Source: an uncultured Victivallales bacterium (GTDB lineage: Bacteria > Verrucomicrobiota > Lentisphaeria > Victivallales > UBA1829). Taken from it: a stretch of 34,904 bases of DNA. The notes under the pieces are model-generated. The model saw only the letters and a program-made list of their open reading frames with translations, was not told the origin of the DNA and made no database searches. Location of the stretch: positions 1-34,904 of the forward strand of contig CALXMJ010000083.1 of the NCBI GenBank assembly GCA_944389445.1. Reading direction: 5' to 3'. Numbering within the stretch: position 1 is the first letter of the stretch; every line of letters begins with the position of its first letter. Positions 10,435 to 34,224 of the stretch are shown piece after piece. The translations under genes and the position numbers were made by a program.

Positions 10435-11202
10435 ATGAAAAAAAATGATCTTGACTTTACCGGAAAGACAGCAATCGTTACCGGAGGAAGGCGCGGTATC
10501 GGGCGGGCCATAGCGTTGGCGTATGCCGAACATGGCGCAGAAGTGGCAGTCATTGCAAAGAACCATGATGGAAGCGGGATTCTTGCCGATCTGGAAAAAA
10601 CAGGAACGCCGGGACATTATTTTTCATGCGACATCGGTGACGAATCGTCACGCCGCGGCTTAATCGCCGAAGTCGTGAAACAATTGGGAGGGCGGCTTGA
10701 TATTCTGGTGAACAACGCAGGAATGCAATTCGTTGAAACCATAGAAAACTGTACTGAAGACAACTGGAAAAAAAGCGAAGCGCTTATGCTGGATGCTCCC
10801 TATGACTTTTCCAGGCAGGCGATCCCCTTTATGAAAGCCCAACACAATGGAAAGATAATCATGATCTCGTCCATTTGCGCCATACGGGAAGGCGGTGCAA
10901 ATTTCGGCTATGGAGTCATGAAAGCCGGAGTTGCCGCCATGGCTCGCTGCATGGCGAATTCGCTTGCTCAATACAACATTCAGGTCAATGCGATCGCTCC
11001 CGGTATTATTCGTACTGATCTGACAGAGCGGCAAGGTTGTTTTGAGGATCACCGTTACAAGTCCGTTATTCAGAAATATCCGGCCGGACGTTTGGGAGAA
11101 CCGGAGGAAATCGCCGGAGTCGCTTTGTTTCTCGGCAGTAACTTGAGTTCATTTATGGATGGGCAGCTGTTGATTGTAGATGGCGGCTTTTCCGGTAATT
11201 AA
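10435..11202 (+). CDS. short-chain dehydrogenase/reductase (SDR)
   Basis: The 255-residue length is typical of classical SDRs. Motifs are the cofactor loop TGGRRGIGR (16-24), NNAG (93-96), catalytic Ser145 or Ser146 in MISSICA, and Tyr159-x-x-x-Lys163 (YGVMK). The end (SSFMDGQLLIVDGG) is also typical. At the place where the fourth catalytic residue (Asn, in an N-L-x-A-P context) is expected, the sequence reads MLDAP, so Met118 seems to replace Asn. Arg19/Arg20 in the loop could favour NADP, but this is weak. The gene is first in an operon with a glycyl radical enzyme and its activase, so it probably oxidises the dehydratase substrate or reduces its aldehyde/ketone product. Confidence 0.93.
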   Translation: MKKNDLDFTGKTAIVTGGRRGIGRAIALAYAEHGAEVAVIAKNHDGSGILADLEKTGTPGHYFSCDIGDESSRRGLIAEVVKQLGGRLDILVNNAGMQFVETIENCTEDNWKKSEALMLDAPYDFSRQAIPFMKAQHNGKIIMISSICAIREGGANFGYGVMKAGVAAMARCMANSLAQYNIQVNAIAPGIIRTDLTERQGCFEDHRYKSVIQKYPAGRLGEPEEIAGVALFLGSNLSSFMDGQLLIVDGGFSGN

Positions 11203-11221
11203 CTGAAATATGGAGTTTTTT

Positions 11222-13468
11222 ATGAAATATGCAGAAATCAAGCGGGAATGGGGAAATTACTATCGTGGGATATCATCCCATTGTGTCTCAAGGCCGTTCA
11301 ACCCTCTGAAAAAGGAGATGGACGCTTTCGCGGAGGCCAATCCCGGTCTTTCCCCCATGATGCTCAAGGCCGGACAATATGAAATCATCGCCGATAAATT
11401 CATACCGGTTTTGCTGCCGCATAATCCGTTTTTCTTTGAAACCGGTCTGAAAATGGCGGAATATGATGGCCGCGTTGATCTGAGTTCCGGCGGCTGGTTG
11501 TATTTACGCAATGTGGCGCTGTATTCAGATTCTCCGGAAAAGGCCGCAGATTACAGGCGGTACTGCTATGGCGATTTGATCGGTCTGCATCTGTCGTACG
11601 GGCCGTACTATGATTACGATCACCACTGTTTCCCGTTCTCCAACATGCTGGAACTGGGATTGTCCGGTATATTGAAGCGTCTTGAAGAGGGACATGCCGG
11701 AAATACGGAACCGGAAAAAGCCGAATTCTATGAAGCTGCCCGGCGCGGCATTCTGGCAGTTCGGAAAATCGCCGAAAAGTTTGCCGCCGCCGCAGAGGAG
11801 AAACTCGCCTCGGCCGAATCTCCGGAGGAAAGGAAAAATCTGGAACGGATACGGACGGCCGCACGCCGGATACCGTGGAATCCGCCGCAGACATTTTACG
11901 AAGGCCTGGAATGCCTTTGGTTCTTCCATGAGCTCGGCAGTGTTCTCGACGGCATCGGCATGTCCGTTCTGGGGTCTCCCGACCGCCAGCTTATCCGGCT
12001 TTACCGCCGGGATATTCAGGAGAAACGCCTGACTGAAGCGGAAGCCTACGAACTGATCTGCCTGTATATGCTTCAGACGGACAGCAAACTTGATTTCGAC
12101 CGTCCGATTGAGGGGCAGTTCAACGCCGGAGAACAGGGAGACACGCTGATTCTTGGCGGTCTGGATGAGAGCGGCAATGATGTGACCAATGAACTCACCT
12201 TCCTTTTTCTGAAGGCGCATCGCGAATTGAAACTGACCTATCCCAAAATTCATATCCGTTTCAGTTCCAGGACGCCGGCAGTTCTGTTCCAGGAGGCGGC
12301 CAAAGACTTTCTGGCCGACCGGAACGTGCTGTCGTTTCTGAACGACGACATTGTCATCCCGTCCCAGATCATGGCGGGCAAAACGCCTGAAAGCGCAGCA
12401 AGGTATGTGGCGGGCGGCTGCTGGGAGAACATTCTGGAGGGATATGAGCACAGTCAGGGCGCCAACAGCTATTTCAGTCTCGGAAAATGCGTTGATCTGA
12501 GTATCCATGAGGAGAATGAGGATGAAAAGTCACTTGAACTGCCGTTCCGGAAACTTGACGGCGCCACTTCGTTCGAGGGGGTCTATTCCATTGTAATGGA
12601 TAATATAAAACTGGCGCTGCATCAGCTTTTCAGCATCCAGCAGAAATATGGCGCTCTGTGGACGCAGGTCAATCCCTGTCCGTTTTTCTCCGCCTGTCTG
12701 AACGGCTGCGCCGAAAGCGGCCGGGACTATTCCGCGGGCGGAGCATGTTACAGTCCGCATGGCATTCCGTTCACCGGGGTTGCGGTACTGGTAGATTCCC
12801 TGCTCGCGCTGAAGACGATCTGTTTCGGAGAAAATCCCGTTCCGCTGCCGCGCCTCCTCGCAGTGATCCGCAATGACTGGCGTGATGCGGAGGCGCTGCG
12901 CTGCCGGGCTATGGCTTCTCCGCATCTGGGCGACGGCAAGGGGGAAGCCGCACGGTTGACGGCTCGCATTCTCAATGACCTAGCGGATTATGTCGCCGGT
13001 TTCCGCAACGAATTGGGCGGAATATATCAGTGCGGGCTCTACAGTTACCGTGATATCATCGACTGGGCGAAGGTCACCCGGGCGACACCGGATGGCCGCA
13101 GAGCCGGAGATTTTCTCTCGCAGGGACTGACCCCGGCGCGGACGCACGCCGATGCCGTAACGCAGGTATTCTCCGACACGGCGTCGTTGCCGCTGCTCCG
13201 CTTCCCGGCCAATTCCGTGCTGACCTTGAGCCTGTCGAAGAACGGTCTGACGGAGGCGCTGCTGAGCGGGTTCCTGAAAGCGTGGGTACTTGTCCGCGGA
13301 AGCGGTATGCTGCAGCTGAACTGCATCAGCCGGGAAGAGCTTGAGGATGCGCAGAAAAATCCGCAGAATCATGCTTCGCTGATTGTCCGGCTCTACGGAT
13401 ATTCCGCAAAATTCATCACGCTTTCAGAAGAAAAGCAGCGTGAATTCATCTCCCGCAACATATACTGA
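11222..13468 (+). CDS. glycyl radical enzyme, dehydratase-like (C-x-E type), substrate unknown
   Basis: The 748-residue protein has the pyruvate formate-lyase-like fold. Landmarks are RIPWNPPQTFYEGLECLWFF, the thiyl loop YVAGGCWENILEG (Cys400-Trp-Glu402), NGCAESGRDYSAGGACY (the conserved C-x-E-x-G-[RK]-D region, Cys496), and TRATPDGRRAGDFLSQGLTP. The glycyl radical site is IVRLYGYSAKF, with Gly726 22 residues from the end. The Cys-x-Glu arrangement is found in eliminating enzymes (glycerol/propanediol dehydratase, choline lyase, hydroxyproline dehydratase) rather than PFL. The site reads GCWEN and RLYGY instead of the common GCVEP and RVAGY, so it is probably outside the well-known subgroups. 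ATG 11222 is preferred over 11210 because TGGAG at 11211-11215 precedes it. No microcompartment genes are nearby. Confidence 0.92.
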   Translation: MKYAEIKREWGNYYRGISSHCVSRPFNPLKKEMDAFAEANPGLSPMMLKAGQYEIIADKFIPVLLPHNPFFFETGLKMAEYDGRVDLSSGGWLYLRNVALYSDSPEKAADYRRYCYGDLIGLHLSYGPYYDYDHHCFPFSNMLELGLSGILKRLEEGHAGNTEPEKAEFYEAARRGILAVRKIAEKFAAAAEEKLASAESPEERKNLERIRTAARRIPWNPPQTFYEGLECLWFFHELGSVLDGIGMSVLGSPDRQLIRLYRRDIQEKRLTEAEAYELICLYMLQTDSKLDFDRPIEGQFNAGEQGDTLILGGLDESGNDVTNELTFLFLKAHRELKLTYPKIHIRFSSRTPAVLFQEAAKDFLADRNVLSFLNDDIVIPSQIMAGKTPESAARYVAGGCWENILEGYEHSQGANSYFSLGKCVDLSIHEENEDEKSLELPFRKLDGATSFEGVYSIVMDNIKLALHQLFSIQQKYGALWTQVNPCPFFSACLNGCAESGRDYSAGGACYSPHGIPFTGVAVLVDSLLALKTICFGENPVPLPRLLAVIRNDWRDAEALRCRAMASPHLGDGKGEAARLTARILNDLADYVAGFRNELGGIYQCGLYSYRDIIDWAKVTRATPDGRRAGDFLSQGLTPARTHADAVTQVFSDTASLPLLRFPANSVLTLSLSKNGLTEALLSGFLKAWVLVRGSGMLQLNCISREELEDAQKNPQNHASLIVRLYGYSAKFITLSEEKQREFISRNIY

Positions 13469-13471
13469 GAG

Positions 13472-14389
13472 ATGCCGCCTGATATGACCGCTGCTGATAC
13501 AAAAATCTTTGATATCGGACACTTCTCCGTGCATGACGGGCCGGGCATCCGCACGACTGTGTTTCTGAAAGGATGTCCTTTACGGTGCCTCTGGTGCCAT
13601 AACCCGGAATCGCAGTCAGAAAAAAGTGAAATATTCTTTACCCCGTCCCGGTGTGTGGGCTGCGGAGCGTGTTTCACTGTCTGCCCGGCGTCATGCCACC
13701 GCATGGAAAACAAGATGCATCTCTTTGACCGGAAACGATGCACGCAATGCGGGATTTGCGCCGCAAACTGTCCCGCCGGCGCCCTTGAGTTGTGCGGCAG
13801 GCATCTTTCACCGGAAGAAGTCATGGCGGAAGTTCTGAAAGACCGGGTTTTTTATGAAACTTCAGGCGGCGGCATGACGGTTTCCGGCGGGGAGCCGCTG
13901 GCGCACTTCGATTATCTGTTCCACCTGCTTTCACTGGCCCGGAAGGAGAAAATCCATACCTGCGTTGAAACATCCGGCTATGCTTCGTTCGAGCATATCC
14001 GCGCCCTGATTCCGCTGGTCAGTCTGTGGCTGTGGGATTTCAAGGCTTCCGAAGCGGATCACCGCAGGCTTACCGGCGTGGAGGCGGAGCGGATCCGCGG
14101 CAACCTGCGAAAGCTCGATGCGTGCGGCGCGCCGCTGGTTTTACGTTGCCCATGGATTCCGGAGATCAACGATTCCTCCGCTTACAGCGAGGAACTTCTT
14201 GAAATCTCGGCAGAGCTGAAAAGTGTCAGGAGAATTGAAATCGAACCCTACCAGCCATTAGGAGAGGACAAATATAAGCGTCTGGGACGGCCATTGCTCT
14301 GTGAAGCGAAATTCCCTTCAAAAAAGGCGAGCGGGGATTACCTGAAATTCCTTCAGAACCGGACAAACATCCCGGTCGTCGAGGGGTAA
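13472..14389 (+). CDS. glycyl radical enzyme activating protein (radical SAM)
   Basis: This 305-residue protein carries the radical SAM cluster motif CPLRCLWC (the CxxxCxxC of activases) after FSVHDGPGIRTTVFLKG. It is followed by two ferredoxin-type 4Fe-4S motifs, CVGCGACFTVCP and CTQCGICAANCP, which mark the activases of dehydratase/decarboxylase-type glycyl radical enzymes rather than the PFL activase. GGGMTVSGGEPLAH is the usual SAM-binding GGE segment. It generates the glycyl radical on Gly726 of the enzyme encoded 3 nt upstream. An alternative start is ATG 13484. The gene ends immediately beside IS66 remnant sequence. Confidence 0.95.
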   Translation: MPPDMTAADTKIFDIGHFSVHDGPGIRTTVFLKGCPLRCLWCHNPESQSEKSEIFFTPSRCVGCGACFTVCPASCHRMENKMHLFDRKRCTQCGICAANCPAGALELCGRHLSPEEVMAEVLKDRVFYETSGGGMTVSGGEPLAHFDYLFHLLSLARKEKIHTCVETSGYASFEHIRALIPLVSLWLWDFKASEADHRRLTGVEAERIRGNLRKLDACGAPLVLRCPWIPEINDSSAYSEELLEISAELKSVRRIEIEPYQPLGEDKYKRLGRPLLCEAKFPSKKASGDYLKFLQNRTNIPVVEG

Positions 14390-19772: not shown

Positions 19773-22700
19773 ATGACAATGAGAGTCGCTCTGCTGACAA
19801 GCTGTCTATTCGCGCCCGCCCTTCTCTTCGGACAGATTCTGTTTGAAGATTCCTTTCAGGATGCGGATACGCTGAACAACAGAAAACAATGGCCTCCCTA
19901 CCGGGAAGGCGCGGAAATCCTCCGCATGGAGGATGGAAAATTTGCACTTCATCTCTCACCGAAACCGGTGAAACCGGGATGCAGGGCCATGGTCAGCCGG
20001 CAGTTCGATCTGAACAGCGTCCGTGGCAAACGGCTGACTGTTACCGCGGATGTCAAATGGGACATCAAGCTGCCGTTCAGCAAATGGATGGGATCGCGTT
20101 TCATGCTCTGCATCACCGGTTCCGACAAGAAAACGTCCTATGTCAGTGCATCCATTCCGCCGGGGAAATCCGACTGGAAACCCGTCGAATTTTCCGCACA
20201 GATTCCGGATGATGCCCAGAGAGTCATGCTGTTTCTCGGAATCCAGGATGCTCCCGGCGATCTATATGTGAGAAATTTGAAAGTCCGTTCCGGCGACCTT
20301 TTTCTGGACCTCTCCTCCGCGGCAAACATGACCTATCAGGATCAACAGGCCGGCGACGGCAAAGGAGGCTGGTCCGATCAGGGACCCGACAACGATGCCT
20401 CCGGATTCAATTTCCGGCAGACGACTTTCGCCAATGTTCCCTTCAACCCGCTTGATCCGGGAGCAAAAAAACGAAACACCGTCCTGACGTTTGCATCCCC
20501 GAATTTCCCGAAAGGGCTGGAAAAGGCGGAAATTTCCCTTTCCGGCACCGGAACGAATGCGGAATATCTTTATCTTCTGCACACATGCTCCTGGGGCGGA
20601 ACCAAAGGACCGGCAGGATTCATCTCAATCTCCGGCGACAGCGGAAAAATGCAGAAAATCACCGTTCAGGACAGCCGGGACGTCAGCAACTGGTGGTTCC
20701 CGAAACAGGTGGAAAACGGTGCGATCGGCTGCATCTGGAGCAATGTCTCAGGCGGAAATGTCGGATTGTATGTTACGAAATACAAGTTGGATTCCTCGCT
20801 TGGAAAGATTCGAAAGATCACATTGGAAAGCGCTCATGCCGCGCCCATCTGGATCGTAGTCGGCGCCACGCTTTCCTCCCGGGACTATCCATTCCCCAAA
20901 ACAGAAAGCACTCATATCAAGGCGGACCGGGTCTGGAAGGCGGTTCCTGTCGATACGCAGACGCAGGGAATCCGGAAAGGATCGGCGCTGGATCTCTCCC
21001 GGATTCTGCCGCTGGAGAAAGTCGGAGTTTACGGACGTGTCGTGGTCGCTCCGGACGGACATTTCACCTTTGAAAAACGTCCGGATAAACGGATCCGCTT
21101 CATGGCAGCCACCATTGACTTCTCCCTCCTCTGGGAAAAAAATCCCGATCTGGCCGGTGCTGATGATGCGGAAATCAAACGGAGAATTCGGGAATTCGCC
21201 GAAGAGATCCGCAGAAACGGATACAACATGGTCCGTCTTCATTTCTTCAATACCGCGATGATGGGAAGCGCCAGACAGGATCTGGAATTCGATCCCGTCT
21301 TCTTCGACCGATTCGATTATATGGTCCACTCCTTCAAGGAGAATGGAATTTATCTCAACTGGGATGTCTGGACCAGCGCCCCCGGTTTTCAGGCGGGCAA
21401 TCACTGGGCAAACCGTGTCGGGGATAAAAGACATTATTTCTACTATCTCTATGTGGATCCGAAGGTCCGGAACATGTGGAAGGAAGGAGTAAGGAAATTC
21501 CTGAATCGGAAGAATCCGTATACGGGAACAACACTTGCCGAAGATCCGGTGCTCGCCATTACCATCGCCGCAAACGAGCAGGACGGAATGCTCCGCGGCT
21601 GGCGCGACACCTCCGAACTTCTGCCGGAATGGAAAGCCTTCCTCCGGAAACGCTACAGCTCAATCGACGCCCTGAAGAAAGCATGGGGAAAACGGGCGGC
21701 CGCCCTCCGGGATTTCGACTCAATCACTCCTTACCGGAGTGCCGATTTTGCCACACCGGATCAGTATGGACGCGATATTACCGAATTTATCATGGAAAAG
21801 GAAAACGCTCTTGTCGATTTTTATCGGAAATCGCTTGAGGAAGCCGGATACAAGGGACTCTTCAGCCAGTGGAACATGGGACAGGAACTGTTCCGGAATC
21901 TGGAGCGTCAGAAAGTGGATGTCGTGACCATCAACGGCTATCACGCCCACCCGTCTGCATATACCAGTCCGGGATCGACAATCAGCCAGGCAAGTTCGAT
22001 TTCGCAGATTGCCGCCTGCATCCGGAATCTGAATGCCACAAAGCTCTATCGGAAACCGCTGGTGCTTACGGAATACGGCCATGTCTTCTGGAACAAATAC
22101 CGCTATGAACAGGGATTTGTCACGGGAGCCTATTCGGCCTTCCAGAATCATGACGGAATCACCGGATTCTGCAATCAGGTCCGTTCAGCACAGAAAATCA
22201 AAAATCCCAAGCAGATGTGGATCAGTCCATTTACAGGATTTGCATTCGATCCGGTGGCAAAATCGCAGGAATTCCTGACCGCTCTGATGTATCGGCGCGG
22301 GGATGTGACCCCGGCAAAAAATATGGTGCGGATCGCCGTTTCCGGCAAGAAAATCATGAAGGCTGGAGAGTGGATGGATGCGGTTCACAGCGGACAGACG
22401 CGTCTCTCTCTGGTTACAGGATTCGCTGTGGACTGCGAATCAAATCTGCCCGTCAGTCCAAACGAGCTGATTCTCCCGCTCAGCGGGAGGACTCAGCTCA
22501 ATGTTCAGGAGAAGTTCATTGAAACAAAGGAAAGTGAGGTCAACGCCTTCGACTTTGATTCAACCATCCGGATGCTGAAACAGAAAAAACAGCTGCCGGA
22601 ATCCAACCGCACCTCGGCGGAAAAAACTCAGTATGAAAGTGCAAGCGGAGAACTGTTCCTGGATCAGCACAAACGCTTCATGTCCGTTGACACACCGCGC

Positions 22701-23126
22701 CTTCAGGGAATTTGCGGAGAAGCGGGAACAAAAGCAAAACTTTCCAATCTGGAAATCCGGCAGATGAGTCCGCGTGGCAACCTTTCGCTTGCCAGTGTGG
22801 ATGGAATGAAGGATTTGCAGCAGGCGAAGCGTCTGGTCGTGGTGTTTGCGACCAATGCGCTCAACAGCGATATGCAGTTCCGTGATCTGGAAATGCGGGT
22901 TCTGAATCGGATCGGCACGCTTCCGGTTCTGGTGGAAACCGGTTCCTTCTCGCTGACCTTCCGTAATGTCAATGCGAAGAAGATGAAAGGATATGCTCTT
23001 GCCATGGATGGCTCCCGCATCGCGGAAATTCCGCTGAGACATTCCGGGAACACTGTTGAGCTGACCCTGAAATCCACAGCGTTCCCGCAGGGGCCGGCCG
23101 TCTATTTTGAAGTGGTCGCTGAATAA
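19773..23126 (+). CDS. large secreted clan GH-A-like glycoside hydrolase, multidomain
   Basis: The 1,117-residue protein has a signal peptide ([20 protein letters not shown]). Residues about 20-170 form a beta-sandwich of carbohydrate-binding type ([34 protein letters not shown]), with a second beta-rich segment to about 400. The TIM barrel (about 420-860) contains [23 protein letters not shown] (probable acid/base Glu602) and [13 protein letters not shown] (probable nucleophile Glu767), as in GH5/GH42-type retaining enzymes. A C-terminal beta domain (about 1055-1117) resembles the orphan fragment at 34670-34900. AAAGGA precedes the start by 10 nt. It follows the regulator by 15 nt and is probably cotranscribed with the pseudopilin, peptidase and GH123-like genes. 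The substrate is unknown. Confidence 0.85.
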
Positions 23127-27548: not shown

Positions 27549-27590
27549 AAATCTTGATTTTACGCAGTACTTTTCTGGATGGGCATGAAA

Positions 27591-28577
27591 ATGAAAGTGA
27601 CATTGAAAGATATTGCTGAAAAAGCCGGAGTCTCCAAGGCTCTGGTTTCAATGTATTTGAATCATGATCCCCGTGCCCGTCTGACCAGAGAGAAACAAAA
27701 TAAGATAGATGAACTGGTCGCAAAAATGGGATATCGCCCCTCCCATTTAGCAAGAGTTTTGCGGCAAGGACGCACCAAAACCATCGGAATGGTTCTTGGC
27801 GGCTTGAACGACCCTTTTTTCCATCATTTGGCAGAACTTGTTTTGAAATACAGCAGTGAACAGAATTATCAAATTCTGATTGCTCTGACGGAATGGGATC
27901 CGGAAAAAGAAAAACAGGCCCTTCAGCTTCTTCTTGACCGTGGCGTCGATGCAGTGATCCTCACAGCGGATACTATGAATGACCCGGAAGCGTTTACACA
28001 GATCATCGGAGACCATCCAGGAATTCTTTTGCGCAGGATACACCCGGCTTACAGCTCCGTCACAGGAAACATGAGGGATATTTTCCACGAGACCATCAGC
28101 CATTTCCGATCTCTCGGGATTTCAGAAATTTCTTTGATTGAACATGATAAACAAGTTCAAGCTCTTTTTCAGGAAGTCGCGGAAAAAGAAAATTTCAGAA
28201 TTCGGATTCCAGAAATCCGATGCCGGGCCGATGACAACGCCTCGCTAGGGGAATTTGCCCTGAATGCATGCCGGGAAACCGAGGGACTTTATATTGCATC
28301 CTGCTGGGTCGCCAAACAGTTTCTGCAAAAACTCCCAGAGCATCCGGAACTTCATCCGAAAATAGTGACGAACTATAATTTCCCGGAAGATTTTATTGGA
28401 GATTCCTCTATTACAGGAATTATAGACAATCATTTTTCAGATTTTGTCCGTCTGCTGACCGATACCATTATTGATCTTGCAGAACATCCTCAGAAACCAG
28501 TTATCAAGACAATGAATTTTCATTTTTATTCCCGTCAGGATTTTCTAGCCACGCATCCGGAGGCAGTCGGAAAATGA
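27591..28577 (+). CDS. LacI-family transcriptional regulator
   Basis: The protein is about 328 residues. The N-terminal LacI helix-turn-helix and hinge are clear: VTLKDIAEKAGVSKALVSMY, followed by GYRPSHLARVLRQGRTKTIG and MVLGGLNDPFFHHLAELVL. The remainder is a periplasmic-binding-type sensor domain (LLLDRGVDAVILTADTMNDP). In-frame ATGs at 27579, 27585 and 27591 compete; GGATGGG at 27577-27583 favours 27591. It is the first gene of an operon with a pseudopilin, a small secreted protein and a GH2-like enzyme. It is expected to repress this operon through the operator at 27531-27548 until a sugar ligand binds. Confidence 0.93.
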   Translation: MKVTLKDIAEKAGVSKALVSMYLNHDPRARLTREKQNKIDELVAKMGYRPSHLARVLRQGRTKTIGMVLGGLNDPFFHHLAELVLKYSSEQNYQILIALTEWDPEKEKQALQLLLDRGVDAVILTADTMNDPEAFTQIIGDHPGILLRRIHPAYSSVTGNMRDIFHETISHFRSLGISEISLIEHDKQVQALFQEVAEKENFRIRIPEIRCRADDNASLGEFALNACRETEGLYIASCWVAKQFLQKLPEHPELHPKIVTNYNFPEDFIGDSSITGIIDNHFSDFVRLLTDTIIDLAEHPQKPVIKTMNFHFYSRQDFLATHPEAVGK

Positions 28578-28610
28578 AAGCCGGAAACTGCAGAAAGGAA
28601 TTCTTGAAAT

Positions 28611-29336
28611 ATGAAAAAGAATTTTTCTCTTATTGAATTATTAATTGTAATTTCCATTCTTTCCATTTTAGTCAGCCTGCTTCTTCCATCCCTGTTCAAG
28701 GCGAGGATGTCCGCACGTCAGGTCCAGTGTCTCTCCAACATGAAGCAACTTGCCACGGCATTTCAGTCTTATCTTGGAGATTACAACGACTGCTATCCGC
28801 TGATAGCCCCGGTCTCCAATTGGAGTATGGAAGGTGCAGGTAATGCAGCACGCTGGTACAATACAGGGTTCTACAGTCTTCATCTGATTGCCACCTACAT
28901 TGTGCCCGGAGCTGCACAGTGTTTTAAAAATACGGTCTGGGAACCGGTTTCAAAGGTTTTTGTGTGTCCGGGGAATCAGCTGAATCCAAACAATACGCAG
29001 GCAAATTACACTGCCAATTACTTTGTTTTCGGCAATCCCAATGAAGTGCCCTCCGTTTTCTCCTCCGGGAAGATGAAATATCCAACAAAAATTTTCACAA
29101 CCGCGGAAGGCCTTTCTCACACATTTGATTACAACACGGCCTCTCTGAATGTTTTTCCGGCTGCGGATTTTGAAAATCACACGACCAGCGGAGTCTATCA
29201 ATGGCACTTCCGCCATGAAAAAAGAATCAACTTCATATTTGGAGACGGCCACGCAGCCTCACATGCACCACCATTTTTCGGAATCGGGTCCTGGACCCAG
29301 CGGAAGAGCGGTCCTTTTTTCTGGTACAACTACTGA
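28611..29336 (+). CDS. pseudopilin-like protein with H-X9-DG domain
   Basis: The 241-residue protein begins MKKNFSLIELLIVISILSIL followed by VSLLLPSLFKARMS, a type IV prepilin N-terminus with Glu at +5. The residue before the predicted cleavage site is Asn rather than Gly. HEKRINFIFGDG fits the H-X9-DG pattern exactly (nine residues between His and DG). AAAGGA precedes the start. It is the second pseudopilin of the window and is again placed between a regulator and a glycoside hydrolase. It is likely membrane-anchored by its N-terminal helix and may be assembled into a secretion pseudopilus or serve as a carrier for glycan-degrading proteins. Confidence 0.9.
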   Translation: MKKNFSLIELLIVISILSILVSLLLPSLFKARMSARQVQCLSNMKQLATAFQSYLGDYNDCYPLIAPVSNWSMEGAGNAARWYNTGFYSLHLIATYIVPGAAQCFKNTVWEPVSKVFVCPGNQLNPNNTQANYTANYFVFGNPNEVPSVFSSGKMKYPTKIFTTAEGLSHTFDYNTASLNVFPAADFENHTTSGVYQWHFRHEKRINFIFGDGHAASHAPPFFGIGSWTQRKSGPFFWYNY

Positions 29337-29380
29337 GTAATAGTAACAATAAAATCCAACAAAGAGAAGGAATCCATTCT

Positions 29381-30043
29381 ATGAAACAAATGCTCATTCT
29401 CAGCATCCTGAGCGGGCTTATAGTGGGTGCTCATGCCGATCATGTCATTCTCGGCAAAGGAAAATTCGCACATTTTAATCATTATGGGAATGCGGAGATA
29501 CAAAAGAATAAAGATTCTCTCTCGATTCGATTCGGAGGATGCAATTCCGACCGGGGCGGAGCTCTTCAGATTTTCCGAAATGCACTGGCTGCACCGGCAA
29601 ACGATGACAGCAATGCGCTGACAATCACAATGAAAGGAGACGGTTCCAATGGACGTTTTGTCATTCTCTGCTCCGACACTTCCGGGAAATCATGGTGCTG
29701 GAACGGAGAGCGCTGGATGGATTCCGCACAGATTTCCGTTCTGGAGGACACCTGGCACAAAAAAGTCTTTCCTGCAAAAGAATTTGTCCAAATCACTCCG
29801 ACTCCCCAAAAAGGAGAAAAAAGCGAACTGAATTTGCAGAAAATTCAAAATCTTCAACTGGCAATCGGAGCGAATCTGACCAATCCGGGAAAGAGACTTC
29901 TTTCCATGGAAGTTTCTGAAATTGCAATGGAAAAAGATCCCCGTCCATCGCGAATCGAAGCGGAAGATAATAATAAATCGAAAAAGAACGACGGGAGCCC
30001 CATAAAAAAAAAGCAGTCCGCCAGCCGGAACGTTCTGAACTAG
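29381..30043 (+). CDS. small secreted protein with beta-sandwich-like domain, unknown function
   Basis: The 220-residue protein has a signal peptide (MKQMLILSILSGLIVGAHA, cleavage before DHVIL). The mature part is rich in beta strands and aromatic residues (GALQIFRNALAAP, LTITMKGDGSNGRFVILCSD, KSWCWNGERWMDSAQ, NLQLAIGANLTNPGKRLLSM), a texture seen in carbohydrate-binding (CBM/CIA30-like) modules. The C-terminus is highly charged with a Lys tract. AGAAGGA precedes the start. It lies between the pseudopilin and the GH2-like gene, so a glycan-binding accessory role is plausible. No family is firmly recognised. Confidence 0.7.
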   Translation: MKQMLILSILSGLIVGAHADHVILGKGKFAHFNHYGNAEIQKNKDSLSIRFGGCNSDRGGALQIFRNALAAPANDDSNALTITMKGDGSNGRFVILCSDTSGKSWCWNGERWMDSAQISVLEDTWHKKVFPAKEFVQITPTPQKGEKSELNLQKIQNLQLAIGANLTNPGKRLLSMEVSEIAMEKDPRPSRIEAEDNNKSKKNDGSPIKKKQSASRNVLN

Positions 30044-30053
30044 TTCCGGCGGA
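30017..30053. other. hairpin at the junction of the small secreted protein and GH2-like genes
   Basis: TCCG (30017-30020) and CCGGAAC (30025-30031) pair with GTTCCGG (30043-30049) and CGGA (30050-30053) around an 11-nt loop, with a CCAG bulge. The upstream gene's TAG is at 30041-30043. A run of nine A precedes it, so in the minus direction it would be a terminator with a T-run. On the + strand it lacks one and may instead act as an attenuating structure before the GH2-like start. Confidence 0.5.
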
Positions 30054-30072
30054 TTGGTGCTCTCCCCCATGG

Positions 30073-33000
30073 GTGGACTGGAATTTACACAACCATTTCC
30101 GGGAAAACCTGGCCTGTCGTGAACGGATTTCATTGAACAATTACTGGATGTTCCAACCACGGGAAGAGTCGGCGGAAGAAAAGATTCTGGCATCTGGCGG
30201 AAAATGGCCTTCTTTTCCAGACCATCCGGAAAAGATGGGGAGCTGGTATCTTTTGAAAGTTCCGGGGCGCTGGGATGCCCGCGGCGCATTTTACATGTAC
30301 GATTTTTCCAGGAAAAAGGTGGATAAAATCGGCGGGCGGACTCGCTCCGCCTATTCCCAAGGCTGGATCCGACGCACATTTTTTGTTCCGGAAACATGGA
30401 AGGATAAGGAGATTTCTCTGGAATTTTCCGGCATAAACCGGGATGCACGGCTGTTTCTCAACGGAAGGCGGGTCTGCGACTTCTCTTTAAGTACAAAAGT
30501 TATGATTTCTCCCTGGCTGGTTTACGGGAAAAAAAATGATCTTACCCTTTTTGTTTCCCTGAAATCCCTTCCGCTTTCTCCTGAACACTCAAGATACAAG
30601 GAATACTGCGGTTTCCGAAGAGGAGATGGAGCGGACTGGTGGTTCAATTGGAATCCCGGACCTGGAATCAGCGGAAATGTCTTTCTCAACGTGCGCCCTC
30701 GAAATGTCAGTCTGGACAATCTGCGGATCGTCACGACAACAAATGACAAAAAAATACTCGCCGCGGCAGAACTCACCAACCGGACAAAACAGACGCAGAT
30801 ATTCCGTCTCGACGGAAGAATTTCCAGACAATCGAAAACGCTCTTTCAGCTACCCGGAGTTACAGTAAAACTGGCACCTGGTTCCACACGATCCATCTCT
30901 TTGAGCGGTATCTGGAAGGATGCCGTGTTCTGGTCACCAGAGCACCCGAATCTGTTTCGCTTTCATCTTTATCTTCGGGATTCCCAAGGGATTCCACAGG
31001 ATGAGCTTTCAACCCGCTTCGGCTTCCGGGACATCAAAATCCAAGGGAGTGATTTCCTGCTGAACGGGAAAAAAATCCATCTGAAATTTCTGAGTTCACA
31101 ACTCAGGATTGCCGAGAAAACCGATGAGGAAATCCGAAAAATTCTACAGGAATTGAAGCGTCTTCATTTCAACGGTCTGCTCTATGAATCTCTGGATGAA
31201 CGGGTTCTGAATCTCTGTGATGAACTTGGCCTGATGGTTTCGCTTCGTCATGTCTTCCCTCCCCTGGTCCGCGGAGGAGATTACCTCCCCGGGGTTCCGA
31301 ATCAAGGAATTCCTTTTGCAGCCTATTTGAGTACAAAATATGCAGATGCCCGAACCGAACTGGAAAGCACAATTTCAGAAGTGGTTCGCAAATTTCGCAA
31401 TCATCCTTCTCTTGTCATCTGGATGCTCAACCCACTTCTCTGCTGGAATCCCGACTGGATCAATCCGAACCGGATTGATGAGGAAACCCGCCAAAGCGAT
31501 GTCGTTCTGGCATCTCTGCGGGAAGAAGCATTTCTCCGTCGGGAAGATCCGACACGGATCGTCATTCAAAGTATGGGTTCCAACACCGGCGCAGTCATTT
31601 CCTGCAATCCGTATCCGACGTTCAGCAACCAGCCGGATGAATGGGCCGACTGGCCGATGCGTTGGGCAGAACACCGTAAAAAACCTCTTTTACTGGAAGA
31701 AGTCGCTCTCCCTTTTGTATTCAATTTTGCCTCATTTCACAGTTCTTCTAAAAAGAGGTTCAATTCCTGGACAGAAATGCGGCAGCTTTTCTATGAGCAT
31801 GCCGCACGCTACTTCGGGGACCCGATATATTCTTCAGCGGACGCATCCATGAGTGATCTGGCCTGGCATACCCTTTCCAACGGAATCCAGAAAAAACCGG
31901 ACGGCTCTTCCTTCTACCCGTTAAATCCCGCGGCGGAAGCCGCACATGCCTACTGGCTTCGACGTTGCGGCCTGGCCTGGCGGCTGTATGACATTTCCGG
32001 AATCTGGCCGTTTCAATCGCATCAACTCTACTATTCCAATGGGAAAGGAGCAAAGCGCGATTACGCATATAAGGATATCACGACCCCAGGAATCAAAAAT
32101 GACTATGGCATTCCGGAAACATTTACCCATGTCAATCGAATTTTCGCTGAACAGAAACGCATTCAGCAACCGTTTCTTGCCTGGATTGCCGGTCGTCCGG
32201 AACGTTTCACCTCTCTGGAACACAACTATTACTCTGGAGAAGAGCTGATCAAACAGCTGATATTCTCCAATCATCATGAGAATCCGGTAAAGATCCATGC
32301 GGAATATCGGATCACCGAAGGCGATCGAATTCTCTTTTCCTCGCAATGGTCCGGAGAAATCCAGTCGGGGGAGAACTTCCGTCTTCCTTTCCGCTGGCGT
32401 CTTCCAACGTTTTCCAAGCGGAACCGCCTCTCGCTGGAGCTGACAGCCCGAAGCGGTGGAGAGACCAGCCGAGACACATTCCAGTTTACTGTTTTTCCCC
32501 GGGAAAAAACGATTTCCACCTCCGACGTAACTCTTTATGATGAATACGGGACAACAGAACGTCTGCTGCAGAAAATGGAAATTCCATATCGAAAGTTCAC
32601 CACATCTTCGGCCATGACGGGAACACTTGTGGTCGGCAACAACTCTTTTACAGAACAATTTCTCTCGCGCATTCCCGATCTGAAGCAGAAGCTGCAAGCT
32701 GGATTGACACTTCTGGTCATGAATCAGAATAAGGATACGGTACTGGGTCCGTATTTGGAAGAACGGCGTGCGCGGCATGTTTTTTTGAAAGATCCGCAGC
32801 ATCCCATTCTGCAGGGAATTCAGCCAGAGGATCTCTTGCACTGGCGTGGAGAAAGCGATGTCGCCGAAGCCTATCCGGAGAGCAGAACAGCTGTTCACAG
32901 AGACCGCTTTATGCACTGGGGACAGGAAGGAACCGTTTCCTCCTATGTACTGGATAAACCTTACAGTGGACGATTCCGGATCCTCTTGGACTGCGATGCG

Positions 33001-34224
33001 GATTTGTCTCGAACAGTACTGATGGAATATCTGCTCGGGAAAGGCCGACTGATCTTCTGTCAGCTGGACCTGGATTCCCGTTTTGGAAAGGATCCCGTGG
33101 CAACCCGGCTGACGGAACGACTGCTCGCCTATGCGGCAAAACCGGAACAGACGGTGCGGAAAAAAGTCGTTTTCATCGGCCAGGAAATGTTGAAAGGAAC
33201 CCTGGAAAGACTTGGCTTCCGATTCCAGAAAATTCCATGGAAGAAGGCCGATGTTCTGATCTCGGCGGATTCGACTCTTGCTCCGGAAGAACTGAATCGT
33301 TTTGTATCCGGCGGAGGAACTCTTCTTTTCCTGGGGAACTCGAACAGACAGTATTGCGCATTCGGGATTCCTGTTCCGGAAAGCACCCTCTGTCGTCTGG
33401 CGGCATATGATCCATCGCCTTACTTGCGCGGGATCGGGAATTCCGACTTCTATCTGAATCCGGCAATGAGTCCTGCACTCTTTCCGGGAAGATACGCATT
33501 TCTCTGCAAAAAAACGGGAAAAGGTACGGTATCCGCATTCTCTCTGCTTCCCGAGCAGTTCCAGGAATACGCTTCCAGGATCAAAATCAAAAGAGTTTTA
33601 TCAGTGCTTCTGACCAATCTTGGAGCAGAAGGAGTGGATGAAATCTCATTCCATACAGACAAAGAATCCGGAATGCTGACGGGACGGAAGGTGGCGTTTC
33701 TTACGGATCCGGAGGAACAGGGGCTTCGAAAAGGCTACCACCTTCCGGAATTTCCTGATTCTACCTGGAAACATATCAAACTGGGATTTGACTGGGAAGG
33801 TCAGGGAATCAACATGAACAATCCCAGATACAAAAATGCCTCTGCTCCGTATGATGGCGATGCCTGGTACCGTGTCCGCGTTTTTATTCCAGGTTCATGG
33901 AAAGGGAAGCCGATCGTGTTCCATGCGGACAGCATTGATGATCTGGACTGGGTCTGGCTTAACGGAATCCCTGTCGGTCATACGGGAATGGAAAATCCGG
34001 AGTACTGGGCGGTTCCGCGAAATTACAGAATACCGGAAAAAGCTATTCGGTTTGGGAAAGAAAATCTTCTTGCCATACGAGTACGCGATCTAAGAGGAAA
34101 TGGAGGTGTTTTGAATGCCGTTTATCTTGCTCCGGAAGGAGCGCCTCCTGCAAAAGACGCCTTGTGGGAGCGTCCACGACGAGAAATCCGGGATTTCGAT
34201 CCCAACTTCTGGAGACAATGGTGA
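30073..34224 (+). CDS. GH2-like multidomain protein lacking the usual acid/base glutamate
   Basis: The 1,383-residue protein has the GH2 order: a sugar-binding jelly roll (about 20-215, WIRRTFFVPETWKDKEISLE), an Ig-like domain (about 215-320), and a TIM barrel from about 330 (DEEIRKILQELKRLHFNGLL). In GH2 the acid/base lies in an N-E pair after HPS..W.L.; here RNHPSLVIWMLNPLL has Asn453-Pro454, so the Glu is missing. A candidate nucleophile, Glu542 or Glu543, remains in KKPLLLEEVALP. Residues from about 1,000 include glutamine-amidotransferase-like beta segments and a C-terminal jelly roll (DAWYRVRVFIPGSWKGKPIV). The start is weak: GTG 30073, no clear ribosome-binding site and no signal peptide. 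It may be non-catalytic or use another acid. Last gene of the LacI operon. Confidence 0.8.
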   Translation: MDWNLHNHFRENLACRERISLNNYWMFQPREESAEEKILASGGKWPSFPDHPEKMGSWYLLKVPGRWDARGAFYMYDFSRKKVDKIGGRTRSAYSQGWIRRTFFVPETWKDKEISLEFSGINRDARLFLNGRRVCDFSLSTKVMISPWLVYGKKNDLTLFVSLKSLPLSPEHSRYKEYCGFRRGDGADWWFNWNPGPGISGNVFLNVRPRNVSLDNLRIVTTTNDKKILAAAELTNRTKQTQIFRLDGRISRQSKTLFQLPGVTVKLAPGSTRSISLSGIWKDAVFWSPEHPNLFRFHLYLRDSQGIPQDELSTRFGFRDIKIQGSDFLLNGKKIHLKFLSSQLRIAEKTDEEIRKILQELKRLHFNGLLYESLDERVLNLCDELGLMVSLRHVFPPLVRGGDYLPGVPNQGIPFAAYLSTKYADARTELESTISEVVRKFRNHPSLVIWMLNPLLCWNPDWINPNRIDEETRQSDVVLASLREEAFLRREDPTRIVIQSMGSNTGAVISCNPYPTFSNQPDEWADWPMRWAEHRKKPLLLEEVALPFVFNFASFHSSSKKRFNSWTEMRQLFYEHAARYFGDPIYSSADASMSDLAWHTLSNGIQKKPDGSSFYPLNPAAEAAHAYWLRRCGLAWRLYDISGIWPFQSHQLYYSNGKGAKRDYAYKDITTPGIKNDYGIPETFTHVNRIFAEQKRIQQPFLAWIAGRPERFTSLEHNYYSGEELIKQLIFSNHHENPVKIHAEYRITEGDRILFSSQWSGEIQSGENFRLPFRWRLPTFSKRNRLSLELTARSGGETSRDTFQFTVFPREKTISTSDVTLYDEYGTTERLLQKMEIPYRKFTTSSAMTGTLVVGNNSFTEQFLSRIPDLKQKLQAGLTLLVMNQNKDTVLGPYLEERRARHVFLKDPQHPILQGIQPEDLLHWRGESDVAEAYPESRTAVHRDRFMHWGQEGTVSSYVLDKPYSGRFRILLDCDADLSRTVLMEYLLGKGRLIFCQLDLDSRFGKDPVATRLTERLLAYAAKPEQTVRKKVVFIGQEMLKGTLERLGFRFQKIPWKKADVLISADSTLAPEELNRFVSGGGTLLFLGNSNRQYCAFGIPVPESTLCRLAAYDPSPYLRGIGNSDFYLNPAMSPALFPGRYAFLCKKTGKGTVSAFSLLPEQFQEYASRIKIKRVLSVLLTNLGAEGVDEISFHTDKESGMLTGRKVAFLTDPEEQGLRKGYHLPEFPDSTWKHIKLGFDWEGQGINMNNPRYKNASAPYDGDAWYRVRVFIPGSWKGKPIVFHADSIDDLDWVWLNGIPVGHTGMENPEYWAVPRNYRIPEKAIRFGKENLLAIRVRDLRGNGGVLNAVYLAPEGAPPAKDALWERPRREIRDFDPNFWRQW

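Follow-up and report, generated by a model that had tools for sequence, protein, structure and literature searches.

A very large protein of the glycoside hydrolase family 2 (GH2) fold, encoded in a 34,904-nucleotide stretch of DNA from an uncultured Victivallales bacterium (the whole of which is called the window here), belongs to a large clade in which the acid/base glutamate at the end of strand β4 is lost, the motif that replaces it is conserved, and the glutamate at the nucleophile position of β7 is present in all family rows aligned. GH2 is a textbook family in which annotation of function relies on the two catalytic glutamates. We tentatively propose, from the alignments, that members of this clade still turn over a glycan with the β7 glutamate (E543) and a relocated proton donor, likely E523. 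Our search of the open-access literature, to which most subscription papers do not belong, returned no paper on this clade and no reported activity of a member; the accessible part of PMC11739564 is on a GH35 enzyme.

The protein contains the three GH2 domains in order, all of them above the Pfam curated cut-offs, and falls far under the cut-offs of the NCBIfam equivalogs for beta-galactosidases and glucuronidases. Its main features are:

30073..34224, plus strand: open reading frame of the GH2-like protein, 1383 aa, GTG start
30250..30555, plus strand: Glyco_hydro_2_N domain, residues 60-161 (Pfam E 4.3e-14)
30709..31029, plus strand: Glyco_hydro_2 Ig-like domain, residues 213-319 (Pfam E 8.3e-8)
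31195..31707, plus strand: GH2 TIM barrel, Pfam part of Glyco_hydro_2_C, residues 375-545 (Pfam E 1.9e-5)
33655..34140, plus strand: second GH2_N-like jelly-roll domain, about residues 1195-1356 (C-terminal model, Z 18.8, rmsd 2.0, 140 aligned)

AF2 models were made of the window protein alone, one of residues 1-820 and one of the C-terminal part. The first (mean pLDDT 79.3, pTM 0.85) has a GH2 fold, its best structural row being 6ncy_A (Z 27.8, rmsd 3.5, 486 aligned). The protein shares the jelly roll, the Ig domain, the TIM barrel and the β7 Glu with the beta-glucuronidase/beta-galacturonidase fold of 6ncy and 5z18, but differs from it in having neither the N-E on loop 4 nor the β2 Arg and in carrying extra C-terminal domains. 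The modelled secondary structure places β4 at 447-452, β6 at 509-511, a short helix containing E523 at 521-525 and β7, with E543, at 539-544; confidence at the catalytic loops is middling, with ten-residue pLDDT means of 70 and 61 for loop 4, 62 and 77 for loop 6 and 66 for 541-550, within a range of 42-96 across 441-700. Searched against the PDB, a front-half profile hits numerous GH2 chains, and most of the stretches listed stop at the motif, at profile position 427-430. For the catalytic half, a profile (A6) built from window residues 441-700 and 15 named relatives, from β4 onward, finds no PDB chain, its best score being E 0.096 for 6xxw, suggesting that an ordinary GH2 front is joined to a remodelled catalytic half. 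Towards the C-terminus, the region of about residues 819-1096 is modelled as alternating strands and helices; the fold lists for the C-terminal model consist of matches to the jelly roll or of rows with rmsd >20. The second copy of the N-terminal sugar-binding jelly roll that follows it is a doubling that looks unusual; the first-pass annotation had rightly described a very large protein with extra C-terminal domains.

This reading frame probably covers the larger, C-terminal part of a longer gene, which is split across 29381-30080, with an N-terminal module in one frame and the GH2-like part in another. The elements of the split are:

29381..30043, plus strand: upstream open reading frame, 220 aa, with a signal-peptide-like start (judged by eye) and the module that forms the N-terminus of the fused orthologues (blastp)
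30004..30012, plus strand: run of nine A (A9) in the overlap of the two frames, shift -1, upstream-frame codons AAA AAA AAG

The upstream frame aligns by blastp with the N-termini of the relatives L057, L058 and L072 at 36-38%, a Pfam search of it gave no match, and three orthologues are single intact reading frames of 1651, 1656 and 1674 aa. The split at A9 may be an assembly error, a real mutation or slippage.

Where GH2 enzymes have HPS...W.L.NE, the protein reads FRN followed by HPSLVIWMLNPLLCWNPDWINP, with codons AAC for N453, CCA for P454, CTT for L455 and GAA GAA for E542 and E543. The sites concerned are:

31402..31440, plus strand: HPSLVIWMLNPLL, residues 444-456, end of β4, in the place of the classical HPS...W.L.NE (alignments and model)
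31429..31479, plus strand: substitute loop 4, NPLLCWNPDWINPNRID, residues 453-469, conserved, with P454 at the Asn place and L455 at the acid/base place
31639..31641, plus strand: E523, in the short helix after β6, candidate substitute acid/base, Glu in 75/76 family rows
31699..31701, plus strand: E543, nucleophile position on β7, Glu in 76/76 family rows

A gapless count from HPS...W onto the classical W-S-L-G-N-E sets N453 on the Gly, P454 on the Asn and L455 on the acid/base Glu, and the family alignments agree with this register, whereas the phmmer alignment with 5uj6 introduces a gap of one residue so that N453-P454 face N-E, which puts the Pro at the acid/base position. In either register the acid/base site is without a carboxylate. 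The absence of the acid/base Asn-Glu from this barrel, noted in the first-pass annotation, is thus borne out; its equation of Asn453-Pro454 with N-E agrees with the 5uj6 pairing but not with the family alignments, and what it took for one odd protein has a real loss but represents a single branch of a large clade from which the acid/base is likewise missing.

Four full-length members of the window's own clade were found: the window protein, L057 and L072 (same genus) and L183 (another family, 46%), the members being 42-46% identical to the window protein and drawn from two families. P454-L455 stands in place of N-E in all four, so that the proline singled out beforehand is conserved in close homologues, and all share the loop NPLLC.N..WINPN. 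Residues N453-P454-L455-L456-C457, N459, W462-I463-N464-P465-N466, D522-E523-W524-A525-D526-W527 and E542-E543 are identical in the four. Within this clade, 14 of the 20 columns of loop 4 are invariant, against 112/351 of the remaining barrel columns (Fisher p 0.001), and for loop 6 the figures are 15/20 and 111/351 (p 0.0001). The conservation of loop 4 above the rest of the barrel, together with the shared motif, argues for a site under selection and not a decaying one. Chance or sequencing error at the motif was ruled out by the conservation of loops 4 and 6 in all four members. The clade occurs in at least 3 of 137 genomes of the order at E 1e-220, with the best four candidates at most scored per genome. 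A further copy, L058 (G002:C47), matches residues 1-435 only, ending just before the motif, and the 1.5 kb that follow hold no match to the remainder.

The wider family was assembled as 123 aligned rows (31 from the bacterium's own genome, 26 searched loci, 35 named rows and 31 from profile searches), among which Glu stands at the acid/base column in 23/31, 1/26, 0/35 and 0/31, respectively. As the 76 rows called family here were chosen for lacking that Glu, the fair count is the one by source: in the 74 distinct rows from family-query searches the column holds Asn in 68, Leu in 3, Trp in 1, Tyr in 1 and Glu in 1, the lone Glu row (L071) being a weak partial match over residues 88-390 (E 3.5e-21). 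The 76 rows, window included, were what remained of 99 Glu-less rows after removing 18 duplicates (17 identical, and L171, 96.5% to L101), four rows more than 97% alike, and L078, whose nucleophile column is K in one alignment and E in another. L079 (G052, same order) is identical over 565 columns to L155, from Victivallis vadensis DSM 14823, in keeping with a host that most likely comes from the order to which Victivallis belongs. In the non-redundant set the acid/base column is N in 70, L in 4, W in 1 and Y in 1, and H-N is found in 52/76, in motifs like NHNATGY.GDQNP. Two rows replace N-E by V-W (L068) and S-Y (L069), the Trp recalling subfamily GH2_21.

The 35 named rows come from a scan with peptide patterns at β5 and β6, which favours the HN type and lies close to E523; 41 of 80 named loci covered the core, 35 were kept, and 5/80 had stops in the frame used; the structure alignment (A3) took 33 of the 35. 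Record labels of the best 80 of 81 named loci include Lentisphaerae, Kiritimatiellae, Verrucomicrobia, Planctomycetota, Spirochaetes and Armatimonadota. Sampling of 387 genomes of the window's phylum, with no more than two matches scored in each, gave hits in 56 at E 1e-100. The motif was read for 30 of these matches, each from a different genome, and the acid/base is absent throughout, the totals with L086 added being N 28 and L 3. The bacterium's own genome, a 4.30-Mb draft in which the window is contig C83, encodes 35 proteins with a GH2 barrel match, a large expansion for a genome of that size. N-E is kept in 27 of them, and eight are without the Glu (the window protein and those of C64, C22, C237, C320, C114, C397 and C434); more relatives of the window protein, outside the Pfam list, lie on contigs C211, C384, C400 and C430.

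Two trees, both quick searches, bear on how the loss arose. The first (86 rows, long-branch rows kept) needs four changes, and its N rows do not fall on one side of a branch. The second (82 rows) groups the 68 N and L rows on the same side of a branch (SH-aLRT 94, not starred), and two changes suffice; it omits 18 duplicates, 10 close relatives and 13 long-branch rows or their partners (C18, C183, C297, C302, C99, C326, C67a, C129b, C380, L071 and the family rows L068, L069 and L078), so that the W and Y variants lie outside it. The pruned tree fits one E-to-N change followed by one N-to-L change in the window's clade, the direction being inferred from the classical state. The large clade would thus most likely have lost its canonical β4 acid/base Glu once, to Asn, and the window's branch would have changed again, to Pro-Leu within the new fixed loop.

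By alignment, E543 occupies the place of the catalytic nucleophile at the end of β7. Glu542 and Glu543 had both been put forward as nucleophile; E543 stands, and E542 was rejected, as it is Glu in just 4/76 rows, those of the window's own clade. Besides E543, the carboxylates conserved in at least 93% of the 76 rows are D492, E575 and E523. D492 is shared with classical GH2 (23/24 rows) and E575 (Glu in 75/76) lies inside a helix (566-581), whereas E523 sits at the start of the helix after β6, which makes it the best placed and, from sequence, the best candidate for a substitute acid. Its one non-Glu row is L069, with Asp, and without the pattern-selected named rows Glu is found in 40/41. The presence of E523 is not diagnostic, since classical rows have E in 11/24 at this poorly aligned column. 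The earlier suggestion of a different acid has become the favoured reading, in which the role of E523 is deduced from alignment.

The β2 Arg, described as assisting the nucleophile in GH2 (accessible part of PMC12243196), is R in 22/24 classical rows but in only 12/76 family rows, and is thus lost in 64/76. By motif type it is kept in 9/12 FN, 2/2 VN, 1/1 TN and 0/52 HN rows, and the four members of the window's clade have L, M, I and I at this position (L370 in the window protein). On the alignments, this loss is the strongest point against an ordinary GH2 chemistry, and it feeds two further readings. One is bolder than ours and is offered as a speculation: a GH2-derived clade spread over several phyla would have rebuilt its site after a single loss of the β4 acid/base, and mostly of the β2 Arg too, around an E523 + E543 pair; its stereochemistry might then differ, and the clade would rank as a new CAZy family or subfamily whose mechanism is its own.

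The other, which we consider rather unlikely, is a non-hydrolytic glycan binder or sensor, a candidate because the β2 Arg is also gone; its barrel would serve for binding, with added affinity from the N-terminal module and both GH2_N-like domains. In its favour, the window's clade has lost the β2 Arg along with the acid/base and the Asn that partners it, the protein has two jelly rolls, and the module is fused in orthologues. Against it, a pure binder has no need of the invariant Glu of the nucleophile column, conservation in loops 4 and 6 exceeds that in the remaining barrel, and the many paralogues per genome are more suggestive of a degradative repertoire. Judged from these sequences, the window protein is probably still an enzyme and possibly a glycan binder.

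It is improbable that the proton donor of an active enzyme is instead a carboxylate further along loop 4 (D461, which is E in the other three clade members, or D462, in 55/76 rows). D or E is present at one of these two positions in 65/76 rows, including 4/4 of the window's clade, but the position shifts by one between clades and its absence from 11/76 means that it cannot serve the whole family; D461/D462 was accordingly rejected as the family-wide acid. An enzyme that dispenses with a proton donor, acting on substrates whose leaving groups are good or relying on water or on an acid of the substrate itself, has little probability. Plant myrosinase, a GH1 enzyme of clan GH-A, has its acid/base Glu changed to Gln, keeps its nucleophile and acts on a known activated substrate. 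The replaced acid/base and kept nucleophile are common to it and the window's family, although myrosinase is of another family, has Gln and has that activated substrate; the Asn for Glu in 70/76 rows recalls its change, but the Leu of the window's clade cannot hydrogen-bond a water and the genes scanned give no clue to the substrate. A decaying or mis-assembled gene is very improbable, as the N-terminal module in another frame across A9 and the G002 copy that stops just before the motif are outweighed by 1383 open codons, by P454, L455, E523 and E543 being the same in 4/4 members despite their divergence, and by the three orthologues intact as single reading frames.

Replacement of the GH2 acid/base has precedents, in GH2_21 and GH2_19. 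According to the accessible part of PMC12243196, GH2 comprises 23 subfamilies, some small groups fitting none; in the ulvan beta-glucuronidase of GH2_21 (UniProt T2KN75) the acid/base Glu is replaced by Trp, and in others by Lys, Arg or Asn, and another conserved Glu (E402 of T2KN75) has been hypothesised as the substitute acid/base. GH2_21, compared here through that description, and the window's family thus both have the acid/base replaced and the nucleophile kept. In some members of GH2_19 (PDB 7XYR), N-E is replaced by T-V, N-A or N-Q, although N-E is the commonest form there (PMC12243196, accessible part), unlike in the window's family, where Glu was found in 1/74 searched rows. None of T-V, N-A and N-Q occurs among the 76 family rows, which therefore do not show the GH2_19 pattern. 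PDB 6hpd, which we take to be the GH2_21 ulvan enzyme, aligns best with the window protein over residues 1228-1343, outside the barrel.

In the reading that we prefer, the gene product is probably a secreted glycosidase-like protein of GH2 fold that would continue glycan turnover with E543 at the nucleophile position and with its proton donor relocated, most likely to E523 just after β6. Its production would be switched on by a nearby LacI-type regulator, one of two genes upstream:

27579..28577, plus strand: LacI-type regulator, at the upstream end of the cassette, and found upstream in L198 and L200 as well
28611..29336, plus strand: DUF1559 (SBP_bac_10) protein, immediately preceding the GH2-like gene, as in L198 and L200

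The set of LacI-type regulator, DUF1559 pseudopilin-like gene and giant GH2-like gene recurs in two bacterial families (window 27579-34224, L198 and L200); the regulator adjoins the DUF1559 gene in the window and in L200, and in L198 an LVIVD-repeat frame lies between them. The genes scanned in these neighbourhoods gave no consistent hint of a substrate, GH38 being found near L198 and L109. Elsewhere in the window, an SDR, a glycyl-radical enzyme and a radical-SAM protein stand in a row at 10435-14389, near GH95 (14895) and GH10 (17215, minus strand), and 19773-23126 holds a 1117-aa frame with no Pfam match at E 1e-4.

A domain search would label such Glu-less proteins as ordinary GH2, and the clade is an experiment of nature for studying the loss of an acid/base from a glycosidase and, perhaps, its replacement.
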